Shown here: piece by piece, positions 51,612 to 61,102 of the stretch
Layout: each line of letters begins with the position of its first letter
How positions within the stretch are numbered: position 1 is the stretch's first letter
Assembly (NCBI RefSeq): GCF_002944315.1
Contig: NZ_CP024311.1
Span: 1,154,501-1,218,500, forward strand
Length of the DNA stretch: 64,000 bases
Direction: 5' to 3'
Source: Rhizobium sp. NXC24
GTDB taxonomy: Bacteria > Pseudomonadota > Alphaproteobacteria > Rhizobiales > Rhizobiaceae
Program-made: the position numbers and the translations under genes
The notes under the pieces: model-generated
The model's database searches: none
Told to the model about the DNA's origin: nothing
The model's input: the letters and a program-made list of their open reading frames with translations, nothing else

Positions 51612-53108
51612 TTATTTCGGATAGATCCAGGAATAGGCGAAAGACGCCAGGTCGCCGGGTTTGCCGTGGATGTACTGCACGTCCGCGAGCTTGATGTCCG
51701 GCGTCGCATATTGGGCGCCAAGCGTATCGTGCAGCCAGTTTGCCAAGGGTGCCGGCACGCCGGCATCGTTCTTTCCCGGCCGCCAAACGACGAGGATCGG
51801 CTTGTCGGCGCTCCATTGATAGTCCGTCTTCAGATTTCCGAAGAACAGCGACATGGCCGGCACATCAGGCAGTTGCAAATGCAGATTGCCGGCGGGCAGC
51901 CAGTTGTCCGTCAGCACCAATCCCGGCTTTTTGCGTTCCGTCGCCACGGCCTGGCTCACAAAGGCGGGGTAGGGCGTGTTGTAGTGGTCATAGGAGCCGA
52001 ACCACGTCGGGAAAATCACGCGGATCAACAGCAGCGCCGGGATGATCAGCATCATCGCCAGCGGTATATAGAAGAAGCGCTTGCCGAAATCCGACGCCTT
52101 GATGCCAGCCACTTCCATTTTCAGGCACAGATAGATCGGCAGCAGGAACAGGAAGGGCAGCAGCCAGCGGTCCCGCAGCGCCGTCATGCCGATGCCGACG
52201 ATCAGGATCAGCACCAGCACGGCGATGGCAGCAAACAGGATCTCGAAAAAGAGGGTCCATTCGTTCGACCGCCCCAGATTCTTGAAGAGGCTCTTGCCGA
52301 AGACCAATGAATAGATGACGAGCGTCGGCGCGCAGATGACGACGACCAATTTCACGAATTCCAGCGGCCCCTTCACCAGCTTGGCAAAGGCGCTTTCCGG
52401 CGCATCCTGCTCCATGATCCCCAGGGTCCGTCCCGAGGCAAGGTCGAGATTGTGGATCAGCCAGAGCCCGTGCGGCAGGAAGATCAATAGGGAGATCAGC
52501 AGGGTCAGCAGAAATCGCTTATCGAAGAGGCGCGCGCGCCCCTGCGGATGCATCAGGACGGCAATGACTGCGGCGGCGGCAAGCAGGGCGAAATTATATT
52601 TCGACAGCATGCCGAGACCGAGCGCGATGCCGGTGAACACATAGGAGCCCAGGCTCGGCGCCTTCAGCGTGCGGATTGCACCATAGAGGAAGAGATTGAT
52701 GGTCAGGAGCTGGGCGACCGTATGCGTCAGGTCGCGCTGCGCCTCCCAGAAGAGCTGCGGGATCGTCAGCAATGACAGCGTGGCGATCGCCGCGAAAACC
52801 TTATCGGACAACACCAGCTTCGCCAGCTTGTAGTAGCTGAAGAAGACCAGAAACAGCACGATGTTCTTGACGATGGAAATCGCCGCCAGCGACAGTCCGA
52901 AGACGGACACCACCAGCGCCTGCACCCAATTATAGAGCGGCGGCTGGGAATCGTAGCCGAGTGTCAGCCATTGTGAGAACAGCGCCTGCTGAGACTCGTC
53001 GTAGCGCATGCCATGCGGCATGGCGAGCCGCACCAGAAATTCCAGAGCGAAGTAACCGGCAAGCAGAAGGATGATGGTATCCGGTCGGCGGACCAGAAGC
53101 CTATGCAT
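51612..53108 (-). CDS. ArnT/PMT-like glycosyltransferase family 39 membrane protein, 498 aa
   Basis: A polytopic protein with about ten to twelve membrane segments and a C-terminal periplasmic domain. The first periplasmic loop carries the Asp-Glu pair in MRYDESQQALFSQWL, which in ArnT and protein mannosyltransferases is catalytic. Such enzymes move a sugar from a polyprenyl phosphate to lipid A, LPS core or another acceptor in the periplasm. It overlaps the upstream GT2 gene by eight bases, which would supply the lipid-linked sugar. Rhizobial Rgt-type galacturonosyl transferases belong to this group; the actual sugar is unknown. Confidence 0.86.
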   Translation of the reverse strand: MHRLLVRRPDTIILLLAGYFALEFLVRLAMPHGMRYDESQQALFSQWLTLGYDSQPPLYNWVQALVVSVFGLSLAAISIVKNIVLFLVFFSYYKLAKLVLSDKVFAAIATLSLLTIPQLFWEAQRDLTHTVAQLLTINLFLYGAIRTLKAPSLGSYVFTGIALGLGMLSKYNFALLAAAAVIAVLMHPQGRARLFDKRFLLTLLISLLIFLPHGLWLIHNLDLASGRTLGIMEQDAPESAFAKLVKGPLEFVKLVVVICAPTLVIYSLVFGKSLFKNLGRSNEWTLFFEILFAAIAVLVLILIVGIGMTALRDRWLLPFLFLLPIYLCLKMEVAGIKASDFGKRFFYIPLAMMLIIPALLLIRVIFPTWFGSYDHYNTPYPAFVSQAVATERKKPGLVLTDNWLPAGNLHLQLPDVPAMSLFFGNLKTDYQWSADKPILVVWRPGKNDAGVPAPLANWLHDTLGAQYATPDIKLADVQYIHGKPGDLASFAYSWIYPK

Positions 53109-54120
53109 CCTGACTATCCCGATCGAATATCTTGCGAACGATGTAGTTCGGCGACAGGTCGTCGCGATAATAGATGCGCGCGATCATCTCGGCCAGGATG
53201 CCCGTGGTGATCATCTGCACCGACGACAGCAGGAGCACGACGCCGACCAGCAACAGCGGCCTGTTGCCGATATCGTCGCCGAAGATGAACTTGGCGATGA
53301 AGAGCCACAGCAGGATCAGGCCAGCGAGTGCCCCGAGGCCAAGGCCGAGAGAGCCGAAGAAATGCCCCGGCCGCGCCTTGTAGCGCATGAAGAACATCAC
53401 GGACAGCAGGTCGAGGATAACGCGGAAGGTGCGCGAAATCCCGTATTTCGATGTGCCGTGCTGGCGCGCATGATGGGTAACGACCATTTCGCCGATACGC
53501 GAGCTCGGCACGACACCCGCGACCCAGGCCGGGATGAAGCGGTGCATCTCACCCATCAGCTTCACTTGCTTGATGATCGAGGCGCGGTAGATTTTCAGGC
53601 TGCAGCCATAGTCGTGCAATTTAACGCCGGTGATGCGGCCAATGAGGTAGTTGGCGCACCAGGAGGGAATCTTGCGCAGCAAAAGCCCGTCCTGGCGGTT
53701 CTTGCGCCAGCCGACGAGCAGGTCGAGCTGCCGCCGCTCCAATTCCTCGACCATCGCGGGGATATCCTTCGGATCGTTCTGCAGGTCGCCGTCCATGGTG
53801 GCGATCAGCCGGCCGGTGGCGGTGTCGATGCCGGCCTGCATTGCGGCAGTCTGGCCGAAATTGCGCTGAAGCTCGACGATGCGCAGCGTCAGTCCCTCGC
53901 GTCCGATCGAGCGGCGTGCACTGGCAAGCGTTGCATCGGTGCTGCCGTCGTCGATCAGGATCAGTTCCCAGGGCTTGGTGAAGCCCGCCATGGCGGAACA
54001 GATCCGCTCGATCAGCGGTCCGACGCTTTCTTCCTCGTTAAAGACGGGCACGACCAGCGAAAGCTCAATGGCACTTACCGTGTCGGTCAGGGGGCGGATC
54101 GACTCTGCCGTTGTCTGCAA
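53101..54120 (-). CDS. polyprenyl-phosphate glycosyltransferase (GT2, ArnC/GtrB/DPM1-like), 339 aa
   Basis: The N-terminal GT2 domain has LSLVVPVFNEEESV, LILIDDGSTDATL and TMDGDLQNDPKDIP (the DxD region). This is followed by GWRKNRQDGLLLRKIPS and the DYGCSLKIYRAS signature of ArnC/DPM1-type enzymes. Two membrane segments (about 235-260 and 270-295) lie in the C-terminal third. It should transfer a sugar from a nucleotide donor to undecaprenyl or dodecaprenyl phosphate at the inner face of the membrane. Confidence 0.9.
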   Translation of the reverse strand: MQTTAESIRPLTDTVSAIELSLVVPVFNEEESVGPLIERICSAMAGFTKPWELILIDDGSTDATLASARRSIGREGLTLRIVELQRNFGQTAAMQAGIDTATGRLIATMDGDLQNDPKDIPAMVEELERRQLDLLVGWRKNRQDGLLLRKIPSWCANYLIGRITGVKLHDYGCSLKIYRASIIKQVKLMGEMHRFIPAWVAGVVPSSRIGEMVVTHHARQHGTSKYGISRTFRVILDLLSVMFFMRYKARPGHFFGSLGLGLGALAGLILLWLFIAKFIFGDDIGNRPLLLVGVVLLLSSVQMITTGILAEMIARIYYRDDLSPNYIVRKIFDRDSQDA

Positions 54121-54214
54121 CTCTTCTTTCTCCTAAAAGACCGGCAGAACCGGCCGGACGGAACGAGCGACATGTCCGGCGTCAGCCTCCGCTCGCATTT
54201 GGTGCCTTAACTAC

Positions 54215-55177
54215 ATGAAGACTCCGATGGTTGCCAGCCGACAGAACTGGTTTATTCGCAACCGCATGACGCTGCTGACATTGGCCGTCGTCCTCGCCTA
54301 TGCCGCCTTTATCGAGTGGTTCTGGGGCTGGAGTTCGATCCTGGCGCAATGGGGCAATGTGGGTGCCCTGCCCATTCTTCTGGCAATGGCGCTCCTGACC
54401 AGCACCTACTTCCTTCGCACCTGGCGCATCTACGATTATTTCCCGAAGGAGACCGGCGGTCATTTTACCGCACTCTTCCGTGTGACGCAGGTCCATAATC
54501 TCCTCAACATCATGATGCCCTTCCGCACCGGCGAAACCAGCTTTCCAGTGCTGATGCGCTCCGAATTCGGCATTCCGCTGGCGCGCGGCACCTCGGCGCT
54601 GCTCGTCATGCGGCTGCTCGACCTGCATGCGTTGCTTGCCGCAGCAGGTGTCGGCCTGGTGCTCGCTTCGCCCTATCATGCTCTCGCCTGGGTTCTATGG
54701 CTTGCTTTCCTGCTTGTACCGGTCGCCGTTTTTGTCCTGCGCCGCCCGCTGATCAAATTCGCCGGCAAGGCATTGCCGAAGAAGGCGCAGGGACTGGTGC
54801 ATGAACTGGAACGCGGCCTGCCGGCTAATGGCACTGCCTTTGCCCGCGCCTGGCTGACAACGGTCGTCAATTGGCTGGTGAAGGTCGTGGTGCTCGCCTG
54901 GGCGCTCCGCCTGATGAATGTCACACCGCTGTCGGCGAGTTTCGGTGGTGCCGTAGGGGGCGAGCTTTCCTCTGTGCTGCCGGTGCATGCGCCCGGCGGT
55001 GTCGGCACCTATCCGGCCGGTATCACCGCCGGCGCGATCGCTTTCGGAGCTCCCGGACAAAAGGCCGCGCTCGACAATCTGGCCCAGGCAAGCATCAGCG
55101 CGCATCTCCTGATCGTCGTTTCGGCTCTGACCGGGACGGCACTCGCCTTGCTGATCTCAAGGAAGCGCCACGGATAG
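54215..55177 (+). CDS. lysylphosphatidylglycerol synthase TM-region/UPF0104 flippase-like protein, 320 aa
   Basis: Seven to eight membrane segments carry the family motifs: NIMMPFRTGETSFPVLMR near residue 98 and PVHAPGGVGTYPAGITAGA near 262. Relatives are the membrane half of MprF and free-standing YbhN-like proteins, thought to flip lipid-linked groups. It is divergent from the GT2/GT39 pair by 94 bases, so it may move their lipid-linked sugar across the membrane; that is inference. It ends two bases from the convergent sigma factor gene. Confidence 0.85.
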   Translation: MKTPMVASRQNWFIRNRMTLLTLAVVLAYAAFIEWFWGWSSILAQWGNVGALPILLAMALLTSTYFLRTWRIYDYFPKETGGHFTALFRVTQVHNLLNIMMPFRTGETSFPVLMRSEFGIPLARGTSALLVMRLLDLHALLAAAGVGLVLASPYHALAWVLWLAFLLVPVAVFVLRRPLIKFAGKALPKKAQGLVHELERGLPANGTAFARAWLTTVVNWLVKVVVLAWALRLMNVTPLSASFGGAVGGELSSVLPVHAPGGVGTYPAGITAGAIAFGAPGQKAALDNLAQASISAHLLIVVSALTGTALALLISRKRHG

Positions 55178-55179
55178 GC

Positions 55180-56427
55180 CTATCGTTCGGTTCTGTCGCC
55201 AAGCTCCGCCAGCCGCTTGCGCAGGAACGCCTGTTCGGGCGCCTGATGGCAAAACGAAAGCGCCATCTCGTAGGACCGTCGCGCTTCGTCTTTGCGGTTG
55301 AGTTGGCGCAGAAAATCGGCCTTCGCCGCATGGGCCAGATGATATCGGGCCAACCGGTCTTCGCTCAGCAGGCCATTGACGATATCAAGCGCGGCCGCCG
55401 GCCCATCGCACATTGAAACCGCGACTGCCCGATTGAGTTCGATCACGGGCGACGGATGCGCCACCAGCAGCAGATCGTAAAGCGCCACGATCCGCCGCCA
55501 GTCCGTCCGCTCCGTGGTTGCCGCGCGTGCATGCTCGGCGGCAATTGCAGCCTGCAGCGCATAGCTGCCGACGCTTTCGCCCGCCATCGCCTCGGCCGCA
55601 AAGGCCAGTCCCTCTCGGATTCTCCTGTGGTCCCAGAGCCTGCGATCCTGATCCGCCAGCAGGATGAGATCGCCGGAAGCGCTCGCCCGTGCGAGCCGCC
55701 GCGAATCCTGCAGGAGCATCATCGCCAGCAATCCGGCAACCTCCGGATCTGGCAGGAGCTTTAGGAGCAGGCGACCGAGACGGATGGCTTCGGCGGCAAG
55801 GTCGGCGCGGATGATTGTTGTGCCAGACGAGGCGGAATAGCCTTCGTTGAAGACGAGATAGATGACATGCAACACCTGCGCCAACCGCTCCGGCAGCTCC
55901 GTCTTTGCCGGAACTTCATAGGGAATTCGGGCTGTGCGAATGCGGTTCTTGGCGCGAACGATACGCTGGGCAATCGTCGGCGCGGAAATGAGGAAAGCAT
56001 GGGCGATCTCTTCCGTCGTCAGACCGCAGACCTCGCGCAGCGCCATCGCCATCTGCGCTTCCGCCGGGATGAGCGGATGGCAACAGGTGAAAATCAGCCT
56101 GAGCATATCGTCTTCGATCTCTTCGCTTTCGGCTATCTCGAGCATTTCGCCCTCCGGATACAGGCTGTCGACGATGTCGGCCTGTGAGGCATCGAAGCGC
56201 GCTCGCCGCCGGATGTGGTCGATCGCTCGAAAGCGGCCGGTCGAAACCAGCCAGGCATAGGGATTGGCCGGCAACGTCTCTTCCGTCCATTGTTGTGCCG
56301 CTGCCGCAAAGGCATCGTGAAGGGCCTCTTCCGCCCGGTCGAAATCGCCGAGCAGACGGATCAGCGTCGCAAACACGCGGCGCGATTGGCTGCGGTAGAT
56401 CTCGTCGATGGTTTCGTTCAGCGACAC
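55180..56427 (-). CDS. ECF sigma factor of the ECF42 type with long C-terminal extension, 415 aa
   Basis: Region 2 (about 10-75) has RRVFATLIRLLGDFDRAEEALHDAF and PYAWLVSTGRFRAIDHIRRR. Region 4 (about 115-165) has LREVCGLTTEEIAHAFLISA and IAQRIVRAKNRIR. The 250-residue C-terminal part is helical and TPR-like (VIYLVFNEGYSAS, LNRAVAVSMCDGPAAALDI, YHLAHAAKADFLRQL), replacing an anti-sigma partner in this group. It is the last gene of an operon with three DGPF/YCII proteins, the hallmark context of ECF42. Confidence 0.9.
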   Translation of the reverse strand: MSLNETIDEIYRSQSRRVFATLIRLLGDFDRAEEALHDAFAAAAQQWTEETLPANPYAWLVSTGRFRAIDHIRRRARFDASQADIVDSLYPEGEMLEIAESEEIEDDMLRLIFTCCHPLIPAEAQMAMALREVCGLTTEEIAHAFLISAPTIAQRIVRAKNRIRTARIPYEVPAKTELPERLAQVLHVIYLVFNEGYSASSGTTIIRADLAAEAIRLGRLLLKLLPDPEVAGLLAMMLLQDSRRLARASASGDLILLADQDRRLWDHRRIREGLAFAAEAMAGESVGSYALQAAIAAEHARAATTERTDWRRIVALYDLLLVAHPSPVIELNRAVAVSMCDGPAAALDIVNGLLSEDRLARYHLAHAAKADFLRQLNRKDEARRSYEMALSFCHQAPEQAFLRKRLAELGDRTER

Positions 56428-56448
56428 GGGCGGTCTCTTGCTCTCCTG

Positions 56449-56811
56449 TCAGGTGCCGGGAAGGGTGAGTATCCGGATCGGGCGGATTTCGATGGCGCCG
56501 TGGCGGCCGGAGGGGATGCGTCGGGCAATCTCTGTTGCGTCGGCCATATTGGCAGCCTCGACGAGATAGAAGCCGGCCAGATGCTCCTTCGTCTCGACGA
56601 AAGGGCCATCCGTTGTAGAAAGTGCCGATCCGCGTGGGCGGATGACGATGGCCTTGTCGGGCGTAGCCAGAGCATCCGAGAGGATCAGCGTGCCCTTCTT
56701 CCGCAGGCTCTCGTCATAGGCAAAGTGCTCGGCGATCAGGCTGTCGACCTCGCTGTAGGTCAAGGTGCCGTCCACGTCGGCGGACGTGTAGATCAAGCAT
56801 AGAAACCGCAT
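56449..56811 (-). CDS. YCII/DGPF-domain protein 3, 120 aa
   Basis: The family signature is present as TTDGPFVETKEHLAGFYL, and the protein starts MRFLCLIYTSADVDG. DGPF proteins have the dimeric ferredoxin-like YCII fold with a probable His/Asp active site. Their role in ECF42 loci is unknown; they have been proposed as effectors or as sensors for the sigma factor. The ATG at 56811 has GGAGG eight bases upstream; an ATG six bases earlier is possible. The sigma gene follows after 21 bases. Confidence 0.88.
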   Translation of the reverse strand: MRFLCLIYTSADVDGTLTYSEVDSLIAEHFAYDESLRKKGTLILSDALATPDKAIVIRPRGSALSTTDGPFVETKEHLAGFYLVEAANMADATEIARRIPSGRHGAIEIRPIRILTLPGT

Positions 56812-56834
56812 ATCCATGTCCTCCCACCTTATGC

Positions 56835-57197
56835 CTATTCATTCGGAAACCTGATGTCATAGGCCGCGCGGACCTCGATCATGCCATACTTGGCGACGGG
56901 GAAGGTGGCGGCGATGCGGGTTGCCTCCTCCATATCCTTCGCCTCGATCAATACGAAGCCGCCAAGATGCTCCTTCATTTCGGTAAAGGGGCCGTCGGTG
57001 ACGGTGCTCTCGCCCTTACGCACCCGCACCGTTCTCGCGGTCTCAGGCGCGCGCAATGCGTTTGCCACGACAATATGGCCGCTGTCGCGCAGCCTGTTGT
57101 CGTTGTCGATGGATTCCTGCGTCAGCCGCCGGCCTTCTTCCTCGGTGAGGGACATGATCTCGGCAGTTTCGAACCAAACCTGGCAGAGAAATTTCAT
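56835..57197 (-). CDS. YCII/DGPF-domain protein 2, 120 aa
   Basis: It has the DGPF motif in VTDGPFTEMKEHLGGFVLIEA and starts MKFLCQVWFETAEIM. It is close in sequence to the first protein of the operon (shared CQVWF start and ARTVRVRKGES-like segment), so the two are tandem duplicates that have diverged. ATG 57197 lies after a GGAGG site. No membrane or export signals. Confidence 0.88.
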   Translation of the reverse strand: MKFLCQVWFETAEIMSLTEEEGRRLTQESIDNDNRLRDSGHIVVANALRAPETARTVRVRKGESTVTDGPFTEMKEHLGGFVLIEAKDMEEATRIAATFPVAKYGMIEVRAAYDIRFPNE

Positions 57198-57207
57198 CGT
57201 CGCCTCC

Positions 57208-57567
57208 TCAAGCCTCAGGACCGAAGGAATAGATCGGCCGCACTTCGATGCTGCCGAGCTTTGCAAGCGGAATGCCTGCGGCGACGCGGATCGCGTCGTT
57301 CAGGTCCTTGGCATCGATCAGGATGAAGCCGCCGAGATATTCCTTGGTCTCGATGAAGGGGCCATCCGTGACGGATGTCTCGCCGTTGCGGACCCGTACT
57401 GTCACCGCCGAACTTGGCGATTGCAGCGCCTCGGCGTGGATCATGTGGCCGCTCGCCATCAGATCGCGGTCATAGCCGAGCGAATCCGAATCGAGCCCGT
57501 GCTTTTCCTCCTGCGTCATGGCATCGAGCTTCGTGCCGTCGAACCAGACCTGGCAAAGATATTTCAT
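57208..57567 (-). CDS. YCII/DGPF-domain protein 1, first gene of the ECF42 operon, 119 aa
   Basis: It has the DGPF motif in VTDGPFIETKEYLGGFILIDA and starts MKYLCQVWFDGTKLDAM. ATG 57567 follows GAGGAG at eight bases; the frame upstream of it is not protein-like. A TGTCGA-N17-CGTC element ends 36 bases before the start. Ten bases separate it from the second DGPF gene. Confidence 0.9.
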   Translation of the reverse strand: MKYLCQVWFDGTKLDAMTQEEKHGLDSDSLGYDRDLMASGHMIHAEALQSPSSAVTVRVRNGETSVTDGPFIETKEYLGGFILIDAKDLNDAIRVAAGIPLAKLGSIEVRPIYSFGPEA

Positions 57568-57603
57568 TGCAGCGTCTCCTCTTTCCATTTGCTGACAGCC
57601 ATA

Positions 57604-57630
57604 GACGAGTGGTCCGCAAGCAAATCGACA
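57604..57630 (-). promoter_or_regulatory. candidate ECF42 promoter of the DGPF-sigma operon
   Basis: On the minus strand TGTCGA (57630-57625) is followed after exactly 17 bases by CGTC (57607-57604). I recall TGTCGA at -35 and CGA/TC at -10 as the ECF42 signature from work on Streptomyces. The -10 lies 36 bases from the first start codon. This implies autoregulation. Confidence 0.65.
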
Positions 57631-57664
57631 TCCCGGCTGGCAGCATGACAAAAAATTTCTTCGC

Positions 57665-57692
57665 TGTCGAAAACGCCCGAGGCCACTCGACA
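57665..57692. promoter_or_regulatory. palindromic, potentially bidirectional ECF42 promoter
   Basis: On the plus strand TGTCGA (57665-57670) is followed after 17 bases by CGAC (57688-57691), ending 31 bases before the ATG at 57723. Because TGTCGA and TCGACA are inverted repeats, the minus strand reads TGTCGA-N17-CGAC as well, pointing to the DGPF operon. Confidence 0.6.
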
Positions 57693-57722
57693 AGTTCCGT
57701 CATCACCAAAGGAGAGACGGAC

Positions 57723-57953
57723 ATGCACACCTTGGAAACGGCGTTGGTGAATTACTGGACCAGAAAGACGTTGTCGGAGAAGGATCTGATGGAGACGCCC
57801 GATCTCGGCAAGGTTGTTCTCCGCACCATGGCCGGCTTTGCAGCCTTTGCGGTTCTGATCCTCTGCCTCAATTGGATGGCAACGCCGACGATCGACCGGC
57901 CGCAGGTCGCGACCGTCGATCAAATAAGGCTGATGCCGGCGGCGAAAGAATAA
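57723..57953 (+). CDS. small single-span membrane protein, 76 aa
   Basis: An ATG after AAAGGAGAG (seven bases) starts MHTLETALVNYWTRKTL, followed by an amphipathic polar stretch and one membrane segment at about residues 36-54 (GFAAFAVLILCLNW). A short tail with VDQIRLMPAAKE follows. No family recognised. A candidate ECF42 promoter precedes it directly, so it may be a regulon member working at the membrane. It is divergent from the DGPF genes. Confidence 0.72.
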   Translation: MHTLETALVNYWTRKTLSEKDLMETPDLGKVVLRTMAGFAAFAVLILCLNWMATPTIDRPQVATVDQIRLMPAAKE

Positions 57954-58031
57954 AGGGCGAGATGCCCGCCCTAACTGAAGTGCGGGATATGTGCCGCAAA
58001 ACTCCGACTTTTTGCGATCGCGGCTGTCACT

Positions 58032-58430
58032 TTATCTGGTGGCAAATCGCTTCTTTGCTTCGTCGGTACTCGGCATATAAAGCGAAACGGCATTTCCATC
58101 AGGGTCCCGAAACTGAAACGTTGTGTTGCCCCAGGGCATTGTCTTGAGTTCATGCACGAGGGGCACTTTGTCTTTGAGACGAGCATATTCGGCGTCGATA
58201 TCGTCGACCTGAAACTCCAGGATGAGACTGCGATTGGCGCAAGGTTCAGCGCTGCCTTCCTTCCAGAGCGCAACCGTTTCCGATGAACCAATCGCTAGTA
58301 CAGCGCCGGGCAAGACTATTTCGGCAAAGACCGGCGCTAGCCACTGCGCTTTCACGTTGGCGATCATCTCGTAGAAAGCGACCAGTTGCTTGATGTCCGC
58401 GGTGATGATGCGTGTCGATGCAAATTTCAT
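58032..58430 (-). CDS. VOC-superfamily (glyoxalase/bleomycin-resistance fold) protein, 132 aa
   Basis: The paired beta-alpha-beta-beta-beta modules are visible: MKFASTRIITADIKQLVAFYE at the start, LILEFQVDDIDAEYARLK in the middle and TTFQFRDPDGNAVSLYMP at the end, the last holding the usual metal-binding region of the family. ATG 58430 has AAGGAG eight bases upstream. Substrate unknown. It is divergent from a WYL-type regulator that probably controls it. Confidence 0.87.
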   Translation of the reverse strand: MKFASTRIITADIKQLVAFYEMIANVKAQWLAPVFAEIVLPGAVLAIGSSETVALWKEGSAEPCANRSLILEFQVDDIDAEYARLKDKVPLVHELKTMPWGNTTFQFRDPDGNAVSLYMPSTDEAKKRFATR

Positions 58431-58504
58431 TGTGGGCTCCTTTTGACATGATGGAGCTTGTCGCACAGCCCTGTTGCCACCATTATGGCAGCAGGAGTCA
58501 GCAC

Positions 58505-59212
58505 ATGCGTCGAGCAGATCGCCTGTTTCAGATCATTCAAATTCTGCGTCGGAATACCCGGCCGGTGACTGCCGCTAACATTGCGGAAGAACTTGAGGTC
58601 TCGAAACGTACCGTTTACCGCGACATTGGCGATCTAATTGGTCAGAGGGTGCCGATTTCAGGTGAAGCCGGCTTCGGCTATTTGCTCGATTCCGCCTACG
58701 ACATGCCGCCGCTTATGCTTACGCCAGATGAGATCGAGGCTGTGATACTGGGTGCGCAATGGGTCGCTGGCCATTCCGACACTCTCATCGCCAACGCCGC
58801 CCGCGATGTCATCGTCAAAATTGCGGCCGCCGTTCCTGAAAACTTGCGGCCGTTTATCGCCGAGCCAAGCATGGGTGTGAAGCCAGGCTCGCGCCCACCA
58901 ACGGAAATCATTGACATTGCCGACATCCGGGAAGCGATCCGTCAGAGGCGTAAATTGGCGTTGTGCTATCGGGCAGAGAACGGCGAGATAACGGACCGTA
59001 TTGTGTGGCCGGTTATCCTCGGCTACGCGGAGAGCCATCGTATGCTGGTGGCCTGGTGCGAATTACGCCAGGATTTCAGGCACTTCCGCTGCGACAGGAT
59101 CACCACGGCAATTCTGTGCGATGAAATCATTGGCCTGCGCGCCGGCGAACTTCGCCGCAAGTGGCAACAATGGAGAGCGGAACAATTCAAGCTACTCCAG
59201 AACCGCACTTAG
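58505..59212 (+). CDS. HTH/WYL-domain transcriptional regulator (YafY-like), 235 aa
   Basis: The N-terminal winged helix (MRRADRLFQIIQILRRN, VTAANIAEELEVSKRTVYRDI) is of the HTH_11 type. The WYL-like domain starts near residue 135 (DIREAIRQRRKLALCYRAEN) and reads RIVWPVILGYAESHRMLVAWC, so its Trp-Tyr-Leu-type motif is modified. ATG 58505 has CAGGAG seven bases upstream. The ligand is unknown. Divergent from the VOC gene. Confidence 0.88.
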   Translation: MRRADRLFQIIQILRRNTRPVTAANIAEELEVSKRTVYRDIGDLIGQRVPISGEAGFGYLLDSAYDMPPLMLTPDEIEAVILGAQWVAGHSDTLIANAARDVIVKIAAAVPENLRPFIAEPSMGVKPGSRPPTEIIDIADIREAIRQRRKLALCYRAENGEITDRIVWPVILGYAESHRMLVAWCELRQDFRHFRCDRITTAILCDEIIGLRAGELRRKWQQWRAEQFKLLQNRT

Positions 59213-59227
59213 GAAGTAAGAGCTGCG

Positions 59228-59554
59228 TTAAAAGCGCTGCACAAAATCCGAGATGGCAACATAAAATCTGGACACTTGATCGGCCGGCGCATCGTTTTCC
59301 GGCCAGATCGCGATTAGTTCTTCAAGATTCGTCTTGATCACATGGAAGGTGTCCAGCCCTTCTTGCTCACTGCCGATAAAAACGGTGTGGACCATATTGC
59401 CGTAGAGGCCGCAGGTAATGGCAAATGGCACGCGATCACACCTCTCAAGTGTGATGCGCGCGCCGGCGCTATGTTCTTCGTCCAAAACAATAACGCCACC
59501 TTCTGAACCCTGACGGCCGACCGTCGAACCACCATCAAAGCTCATCCACGGCAC
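59228..59554 (-). CDS. hypothetical protein, 108 aa, GTG start
   Basis: A GTG at 59554 lies five bases after GAGGAA. The product is acidic and soluble: GGVIVLDEEHSAGARITLE then PFAITCGLYGNMVHTVFIG and a helical end (TNLEELIAIWPEND, FYVAISDFVQRF). An ATG at 59545 is an alternative start. I do not recognise the family. Convergent with the WYL regulator, 15 bases apart. Confidence 0.7.
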   Translation of the reverse strand: MPWMSFDGGSTVGRQGSEGGVIVLDEEHSAGARITLERCDRVPFAITCGLYGNMVHTVFIGSEQEGLDTFHVIKTNLEELIAIWPENDAPADQVSRFYVAISDFVQRF

Positions 59555-59596
59555 TACATTTCCTCTGTCAACTGCGATTGCCGCCTTGTCGATGGG

Positions 59597-61102
59597 TCAC
59601 TGAAACGCCGTTTCGAAGAAGCTGCGCAGCTTGCGTGAATGCAGCGCTTCCGGTGGCATCGCCGCCAGCTTCTGGATGGCGCGGATGCCGATCTGCAGAT
59701 GCTGGTTCACCTGCGTGCGGTAGAAGGCGGTCGCCATACCCGGCAGTTTCAGCTCACCGTGCAGCGGCTTGTCGGAGACGCAGAGCAGCGTGCCGTAGGG
59801 AACGCGGAAACGGAAACCGTTGGCGGCGATCGTTGCCGATTCCATGTCCAGCGCCACGGCGCGGGCCTGCGACAGGCGTTTCACCGGCCCTGCCTGATCG
59901 CGCAGTTCCCAGTTGCGATTGTCGATCGTGCCGACCGTGCCCGTGCGCATGATGCGCTTCAGCTCGAAGCCTTCGTAGCCGGTGATTTCTGCCACGGCTG
60001 CTTCCAGCGCCACCTGCACTTCGGCAAGCGCCGGGATCGGCACCCACACCGGCAGGTCGTCGTCGAGAACGTGATCCTCGCGCATATAGGCATGCGCCAA
60101 CACATAGTCGCCGAGCCGCTGGCTGTTGCGCAGGCCGGCGCAGTGGCCGAGCATCAGCCAAGCATGCGGACGGAGCACCGCGACATGGTCGGTGATCGTC
60201 TTGGCGTTGGACGGGCCGACGCCGATATTGATCATGGTGATGCCGGCATGGCCCTTCTTTTTCAGATGGTAGGCCGGCATCTGCGGCAACCGTGGCGCGG
60301 TCGTGGTGCCCTCCGGTTGGCTGGCGCCAGCCAGCGTGATGATATTGCCCGGCTCGACGAAGGCGGTGTAGCCGTCGCCGCCGCCCTTGGCCATCAGATC
60401 GCGCGCCCAGTGGCAGAATTCGTCGATATAGAACTGATAGTTCGTAAAGAGCACGAAGTTCTGGAAATGGGTCGCGCTGGTCGCGGTGTAGTGGGCGAGG
60501 CGGGCGAGCGAATAGTCGATGCGTTGCGCAGTAAACGGCGCAAGGGGTGAGGGTTCGCCGGGTGGCGGAATATATTCGCCATTGGCGATCTCGTCGTCGG
60601 TGGTGTTCAGGTCCGGCGTATCGAAGATATCGCGCAGCGGAATATCGTCGAAAGCGGCGGCCGAAGCTTCGACGTGCGCGCCTTCGCCGAAGGCGAAATG
60701 CAGCGGGATCGGCGTCGTCGATTCCGACACCACGACCGGCACATTATGGCTGCGCATCAACAGGGCCAGTTGTTCTTTCAGATAATGGCGGAATAGCTGC
60801 GGACGGGTGATGGTGGTCGTGTAGACGCCGGGTGCGGTGACGTGGCCATAGGAAAGACGCGAGTCGACATGGCCGAAGCTTGTCGTCTCGATGCTGACCT
60901 GTGGATAGAAGGCGCGGTAGCGCGCCGTGATCGGCGCACCCTTGGCCAGCTTGGTGAAGCTGTCGATCAGGAACGCGGTGTTGCGCTCGTAAAGCTCAGT
61001 CAGAGCATCGACGGCCTTGGCTGGATCGTCGAAGCTCTGCGGCTGAAACGGGCTGGGTGAAGAAATATCGAGGGGTGAAAAAGGAGAGATTCGGTTGCTC
61101 AT
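59597..61102 (-). CDS. amn: AMP nucleosidase, 501 aa
   Basis: Amn splits AMP into adenine and ribose 5-phosphate to control adenylate pools. The N-terminal regulatory domain (about 1-175) precedes the nucleoside-phosphorylase-like catalytic domain with TMINIGVGPSNAKTITDHV, LGHCAGLRNSQRLGDYVLA and AVALDMESATIAANGF (the catalytic acidic region). Length is usual. It is monocistronic; its start is followed upstream by small membrane-protein genes. Confidence 0.94.
   Translation of the reverse strand: MSNRISPFSPLDISSPSPFQPQSFDDPAKAVDALTELYERNTAFLIDSFTKLAKGAPITARYRAFYPQVSIETTSFGHVDSRLSYGHVTAPGVYTTTITRPQLFRHYLKEQLALLMRSHNVPVVVSESTTPIPLHFAFGEGAHVEASAAAFDDIPLRDIFDTPDLNTTDDEIANGEYIPPPGEPSPLAPFTAQRIDYSLARLAHYTATSATHFQNFVLFTNYQFYIDEFCHWARDLMAKGGGDGYTAFVEPGNIITLAGASQPEGTTTAPRLPQMPAYHLKKKGHAGITMINIGVGPSNAKTITDHVAVLRPHAWLMLGHCAGLRNSQRLGDYVLAHAYMREDHVLDDDLPVWVPIPALAEVQVALEAAVAEITGYEGFELKRIMRTGTVGTIDNRNWELRDQAGPVKRLSQARAVALDMESATIAANGFRFRVPYGTLLCVSDKPLHGELKLPGMATAFYRTQVNQHLQIGIRAIQKLAAMPPEALHSRKLRSFFETAFQ

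Follow-up and report, generated by a model that had tools for sequence, protein, structure and literature searches.

In a 64,000-nucleotide stretch of the 7.3-Mb genome of Rhizobium sp. NXC24 (G000:C1:1154501-1218500; hereafter the window, with positions counted from its first letter), three tandem YCII/DGPF genes precede a gene for an ECF42-type extracytoplasmic function (ECF) sigma factor. Our reading, which we consider fairly likely, is that this locus is the core of a self-amplifying circuit in which the sigma factor would transcribe its own operon, a small single-span membrane protein encoded divergently from it, and, outside the window, a lactate/oxalate-formate-like transporter of the major facilitator superfamily (MFS) on another contig. 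The sigma factor would be kept apart from an ECF42 sister found across the genus mainly by one contact, that of residue 153 in its recognition helix with the sixth base of the −35 box (position −31), Ala153 pairing with TGTCGA in the window sigma factor and Glu153 with TGTCGG in the sister. Its activity would presumably be set through a C-terminal DUF6596/TPR extension, with the YCII proteins as the first candidates for a partner that binds there and the small membrane protein as the second, be it as a feedback regulator, a tether, or a transport accessory.

The YCII-sigma operon and its promoter element

The sigma factor (55180..56427, minus strand; 415 amino acids, GTG start) carries a sigma2 domain (PF04542, residues 11-77) and a sigma4 domain (PF08281, residues 113-162), the only sigma domains found by Pfam scan, and a recognition helix at residues 149-161 (APTIAQRIVRAKN) that includes Ala153. 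The sigma4 match stops near residue 164, which leaves a C-terminal extension of about 250 residues that matches DUF6596 (E 4.4e-35); Pfam TPR models match this protein weakly, at residues 365-409 (E 0.013-0.072), and give a clearer match to related sigma factors, e.g., P0134 (TPR_1, E 3.6e-08). Upstream and in the same direction are the three YCII/DGPF genes (Pfam family PF03795), which in operon order are Y1 (57208..57567; 119 amino acids, E 8.4e-20), Y2 (56835..57197; 120 amino acids, E 8.3e-16), and Y3 (56449..56817; 122 amino acids, E 1.1e-20), all on the minus strand. The domain matches thus confirm the first-pass annotation, which had read from the letters a sigma factor with a 250-residue TPR-like extension behind three tandem DGPF/YCII genes. 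Y1 is clearly related to a solved YCII protein of Pseudomonas aeruginosa, PA1349 (1s7i; E 4.8e-30), which we take to lie in an ECF42 operon as well. The whole genome contains 12 YCII and five DUF6596 matches.

The predicted operon promoter, TGTCGA-N17-CGTC, was found where it had been annotated, at 57630-57604 on the minus strand (57604..57630), 36 bases before the Y1 ATG at 57567; the consensus was drawn from the first-pass annotation and from the mapped promoters of the Sinorhizobium meliloti sigma factor RpoE10 (PMC6180224). The extension, the YCII neighbours, and the form of the promoter agree with the ECF42 group as described in PMC8999054 and with the RpoE10 promoters in PMC6180224, and on these features we assign the window sigma factor to the ECF42 type, as had been proposed. 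The window contains four exact matches to the N17 pattern, where shuffles lead one to expect 0.38, and none of 100 shuffles reached four; three of the four matches fall in 57604-57692, and two of these are the opposite strands of one quasi-palindrome. Conservation is a better argument against chance than the shuffle count. A search of 120 genomes with Y1 recovered the locus from 62, namely from 61 of the 72 genus genomes and from one outside the genus, and in the related Rhizobium loci taken from these (59, with G024, G055, and G086 left out) TGTCGA-N17-CGWC ahead of the first YCII gene was kept in 59/59. Among the first 19 loci, L071 has two YCII genes only; 40 of the remaining 43 were fetched, and all 40 contain three YCII genes and the sigma gene. 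The genes, the elements, and the conservation of the elements are computed observations, from which we infer transcription from the elements, the direction of the divergent element, autoregulation, and the roles of the YCII and membrane proteins.

In agreement with the annotated lack of a classical anti-sigma factor, the Pfam scan of chosen neighbours across 51612-61102 found no known anti-sigma domain, the small membrane protein encoded there belonging to no family; that protein could conceivably be an anti-sigma factor of a new type. The extension of ECF42 sigma factors is needed for activity, and binding of a partner there changes the sigma factor (PMC8999054, PMC9023288), which is where we would place the YCII proteins. 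A serious, if not favoured, possibility is that they are enzymes rather than regulators, the regulon serving detoxification and something else binding the extension to set sigma activity. The GFA and DoxX-like neighbours of sister loci, the VOC gene near the window locus, and two glyoxalase-like targets of RpoE10 (PMC6180224) point that way; on the other side, YCII genes travel with ECF42 sigma factors across several phyla, a review proposes YCII proteins as part of the regulation (PMC8999054), and the two roles are not mutually exclusive. At many distant ECF42 loci from several phyla (L253-L270), the YCII genes stand after the sigma gene, and in many of these no TGTC..CGWC element was found before the sigma gene by the pattern used. 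In the window genome, a further YCII gene at G000:C1:2761326-2761661 (L011, L052) has no ECF42 gene within the 6 kb fetched.

The remote transporter and residue 153

Scanning the 7.3 Mb with the loose pattern proposed in the first-pass annotation was of no use (425 matches, about a hundred of them listed). A tighter pattern, TGTCGAWWW-N14-CGWC, gave ten sites, of which two are the window elements, one belongs to the locus of a further ECF42 sigma factor (L050), and one lies 79 bases before an MFS transporter gene on contig C4 (start 11777); five of the remaining six overlap open reading frames (ORFs) of at least 120 amino acids and one (L077) does not. Two seemingly conserved sites, L076 and L081, were dropped, as both fall across the beginning of the reading frame of a single protein. 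The best NCBIfam matches of the transporter, all under cut-off, are L-lactate and oxalate/formate transporters, which suggests that the circuit may handle a small organic acid or a related toxic metabolite; the glyoxalase-like RpoE10 targets (PMC6180224) and the DoxX-like and GFA neighbours of sister loci give the same hint.

Transporter orthologues (E <= 1e-110) are present in 71 of the 120 genomes and in 69 of the 72 of the genus, missing at this threshold in G036, G056, and G057. The 350 bases upstream were read for 70 transporter genomes, leaving out the two transporter matches of G105. Where the YCII-sigma locus is present, TGTCGA-N17-CGWC precedes the transporter in 58/60 genomes, with the two misses (G012, G051) one base off, and TGTCGG in 0/60; where the locus is absent, TGTCGA-N17-CGWC occurs in 0/10 and TGTCGG-N17-CGTC in 9/10, the tenth genome (G075, outside the genus) having neither. 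The promoter base therefore correlates with the presence of the locus. C or T at base six, a match on the opposite strand, and the reversed pattern were each found in 0/70. The ten box positions are identical across the 58, against an average identity of 53% at spacer positions 10-23, and letter shuffles yielded 0.055 hits per 60. On these results the transporter is a candidate target of the window sigma factor.

The sister sigma factor gives this contrast a candidate explanation. Among the 11 genus genomes that lack the locus, nine have exactly one ECF42 match and the other two none; those two also lack a transporter match at the threshold used. The sole ECF42 sigma factor of the nine is 78-80% identical to a second one of the window genome, L049, and has TGTCGG-N17-CGTC as its own promoter. 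In G027, G064, and G068, the L049-type sigma gene and the transporter are about 13-15 kb apart on one contig. L049-type sigma factors occur in 69 of the 72 genus genomes, and thus 59 of the 60 genomes with locus and transporter hold both types; although both are present, the transporter promoter retains the A or a one-base variant. Because the G-type promoter is carried where the window-type sigma factor is missing, it seems to belong to the Glu-type sigma factor there, and a single promoter base seems to decide which sister may use the promoter.

To relate helix to promoter, 193 ECF42 rows were compiled, and in each the recognition helix was set beside the element closest to the first gene, with any base allowed at positions five and six of the −35 box; the sigma factors of the window and of L054-L071 stand outside this set. 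The helix was readable in 192 rows (L354, with a helix gap, was dropped), 127 of which have an element within 5-75 bases; these counts are not independent cases, as L049/L316 and L048/L346 are the same loci entered twice and some genomes overlap. Bases five and six are GG (i.e., TGTCGG) in 29/29 rows with Glu153, while rows with Ala153 comprise 76 GA, 10 GT, and 1 GG, and those with Gly, Leu, or Ser153 end in A in 11/11; non-Glu residues thus accompany GG in 1/98. The residue-base correlation is an observation, and residue 153 as the cause of the A/G preference is our interpretation of it. In solved complexes, the template base at −31 is contacted by sigmaE R171 and by SigW K170, and G−35 by sigmaE R176 and by SigW R175 (PMC6713349). 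Our alignment matches residue 153 with sigmaE R171; it matches R158, which does not vary in the alignments made, with sigmaE R176. Should the box G correspond to G−35, the sixth base would be −31. A cytosine opposite Glu and a thymine opposite Ala are in keeping with ordinary major-groove chemistry.

Four further observations concern the promoter types of the group. In the window genome, TGTCGG-N17-CGTC also stands at L048:3148-3174 (minus strand), upstream of a YCII gene that points away from the L048 sigma operon, and at L049:3474-3500 (minus strand), upstream of a DoxX-like gene that follows the L049 sigma gene; both sites are candidates for further targets of the L049-type sigma factor. 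Use of TGTCGG by the L048 sigma factor itself was considered and dropped, its own element being TGTCAA and the TGTCGG site facing the divergent YCII gene. The L048-type sigma factors (L048, L350, L351) differ at base five as well, with TGTCAA or TGTCCA before their YCII genes. Bradyrhizobium rows, with a helix of the form [DEGV..][AV]MAQRL[LV]RAKQ, have TGTCGT, a third promoter type in the ECF42 group.

The divergent element and the small membrane-protein gene

The 155-base intergenic gap that holds the operon promoter also holds a second element, TGTCGA-N17-CGAC (57665..57691, plus strand), 31 bases before a small ORF (57723..57953, plus strand) that encodes 76 amino acids with one hydrophobic stretch and no Pfam family. 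By homology, the small ORF was found in 19 of the 120 related genomes including the window genome, all of the same genus, and in 19/19 it is divergent from the YCII and sigma genes with an element in each direction. A small ORF with a single hydrophobic stretch was present in 34 of the 40 further loci and subsequently in five of the other six, bringing the total to 58/59; the exception, L117, ends at a contig edge. The divergent element is exact in 51/59 loci, and 58/59 have it if the first base is free and the spacer is N16 or N17. The dN/dS of the small ORF is 0.10-0.45 (15 pairs among six near relatives). An alignment search of 5.8 billion proteins returned 73 relatives, none with a Pfam domain and all named, where a name was shown, as hypothetical, uncharacterized, or transmembrane proteins. 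We regard the small ORF as a candidate second product of the sigma circuit. The locus had been annotated as compact and complete, which is too narrow: its intergenic gap contains this second element facing a gene for a small membrane protein, and another contig carries one or more conserved candidate targets.

Being a quasi-palindrome, the divergent element can be read on the minus strand too (57692-57666), and it might instead serve the YCII-sigma operon as an additional upstream promoter or as an operator, the small gene being driven otherwise. Two loci (L142, L152) have TGTCGA on the minus strand and CGTCGA on the plus strand, and L154 has the small ORF and no such divergent element. This alternative nevertheless appears improbable to us. 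Read on the plus strand, TGTCGA runs on into AA (positions 7 and 8 at 1.00 and 0.96), as at the transporter promoter (0.97 and 0.84), and the minus-strand reading lacks the AA; in the L059-L070 group the plus strand retains TGTCGA, and no minus-strand TGTCG[AG]-N16-18-CGWC was listed for 11/12 (all but L064); and the distance from the element to the start of the small ORF is 31-33 bases in the 19 loci read, except in L071 (34) and where alternative starts are used. Given the AA and this close, nearly constant spacing, we take the element to face the small membrane-protein gene.

Beyond the small ORF, at 58032-59212, are a VOC/glyoxalase gene (minus strand) and an HTH_11-WYL regulator gene (plus strand), which accompany the locus in 2/19 genomes (the window genome and L057) within the flanks read and are therefore probably outside it. 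On the other side, at 51612-55177, are genes for a PMT_2-type glycosyltransferase, a family 2 glycosyltransferase, and an LPG_synthase_TM protein, for which no tie to the sigma locus was seen.

Weight of the evidence and known relatives

Several observations weigh against the proposed circuit, beginning with the double-stranded readability of the divergent element described above. S. meliloti overproducing RpoE10 showed no rise of the YCII-sigma operon that encodes this sigma factor (PMC6180224), and autoregulation of the window operon is therefore our assumption. One genome, G057, holds the locus and has no transporter match. An element was absent by the pattern used from 65 of the 192 helix-readable rows. 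The caulobacteracean L296 pairs Ala153 with TGTCGG, the single exception to the residue-153 rule, and all ten Bradyrhizobium rows (L295, L300, L303, L305, L306, L308, L310, L312, L314, L315) pair Ala153 with TGTCGT before the YCII gene; other residues must thus matter too. On a quick tree of 77 rows, base six changes three times and Glu153 arises once, providing one independent pair; the correlation is therefore almost without independent replication, and no independent repeat of the residue-153 code was found on that tree. Two independent switches of the transporter promoter were considered, since the tree requires two A/G changes; a single clade of G-type transporters is not rejected, however, and its likelihood is higher when they are held together. 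We count the switch as one or two events, and the handover may have been a single one.

Finally, the L050 sigma factor of the window genome has a near-identical helix (EATIAQRIVRAKR) and −35 box (own element TGTCGATTT...CGTC) and could serve the same promoters. The window locus would then be an ordinary ECF42 locus, with the transporter read by L050 or another Ala-type ECF42 sigma factor, or by several, and A versus G reflecting functionally meaningless lineage drift, as would suit the nine G-type transporters if they form one clade. We assign this account a low probability: G017 has the TGTCGA transporter promoter and the window-type sigma factor, with no L050-type sigma factor among its matches at E <= 1e-60, and the change falls precisely on base six, with both boxes otherwise kept in 9/9 G-type promoters and the same base found in the remaining sigma factor's own promoter.

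The closest known system is that of RpoE10, an ECF42 member with mapped TGTCGG promoters. Like the window locus, it has a YCII gene before the sigma gene, a TPR-type extension, no identifiable anti-sigma factor, and −35 and −10 boxes of the same form at N17 spacing; unlike it, RpoE10 has one YCII gene instead of three, TGTCGG in place of TGTCGA, and glyoxalase-like and hydrophobic-ligand-type proteins as targets (PMC6180224). RpoE10 probably corresponds to L049 rather than to the window sigma factor, judging from gene order and a Sinorhizobium relative with the same recognition helix as the L049-type sigma factors: at L234 and L235 the gene after the sigma gene, START/AHSA1-like by sequence reading, has a TGTCGG element, as does that of the S. 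meliloti hydrophobic-ligand protein SMc01149 (PMC6180224). The ECF42 systems of Streptomyces venezuelae (Liu 2018, Wu 2019) share the YCII/DGPF neighbours and the TPR extension, which is essential there (PMC8999054, PMC9023288), and ECF-10 of Pseudomonas putida is likewise an ECF42 member (PMC8999054). Residues in key positions of ECF sigma factors predict promoter bases (Todor 2020, as cited in PMC10880074); unlike the covariation cited there, the contrast described here is one between paralogues that share a cell and belong to a single ECF group, and the target promoter follows whichever sigma factor is present.

The locus itself is of a known kind, to which the second element, the transporter, the A/G handover, and the link to residue 153 are further results. 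The literature searched on ECF42, DGPF/YCII, and promoter specificity, which was covered in part and supports no claim that these findings are unreported, yielded no account of the small gene, of the transporter as a target, or of the handover. That one residue-base pair separates the two sigma factors, that the transporter changed masters by one base upon sigma loss, and that the small membrane protein, produced from the sigma factor's own control region, acts as a membrane-side regulator that the ECF42 group had been believed to lack may all hold together, a conjunction that we consider doubtful. ECF42 sigma factors are widespread, and few of their outputs have been named; the conserved transporter and the conserved small membrane partner would offer concrete handles on their signal and on their outputs, and the A/G switch would allow the insulation of duplicated sigma factors from one another, and the passing of a gene between them, to be tested in a natural setting.

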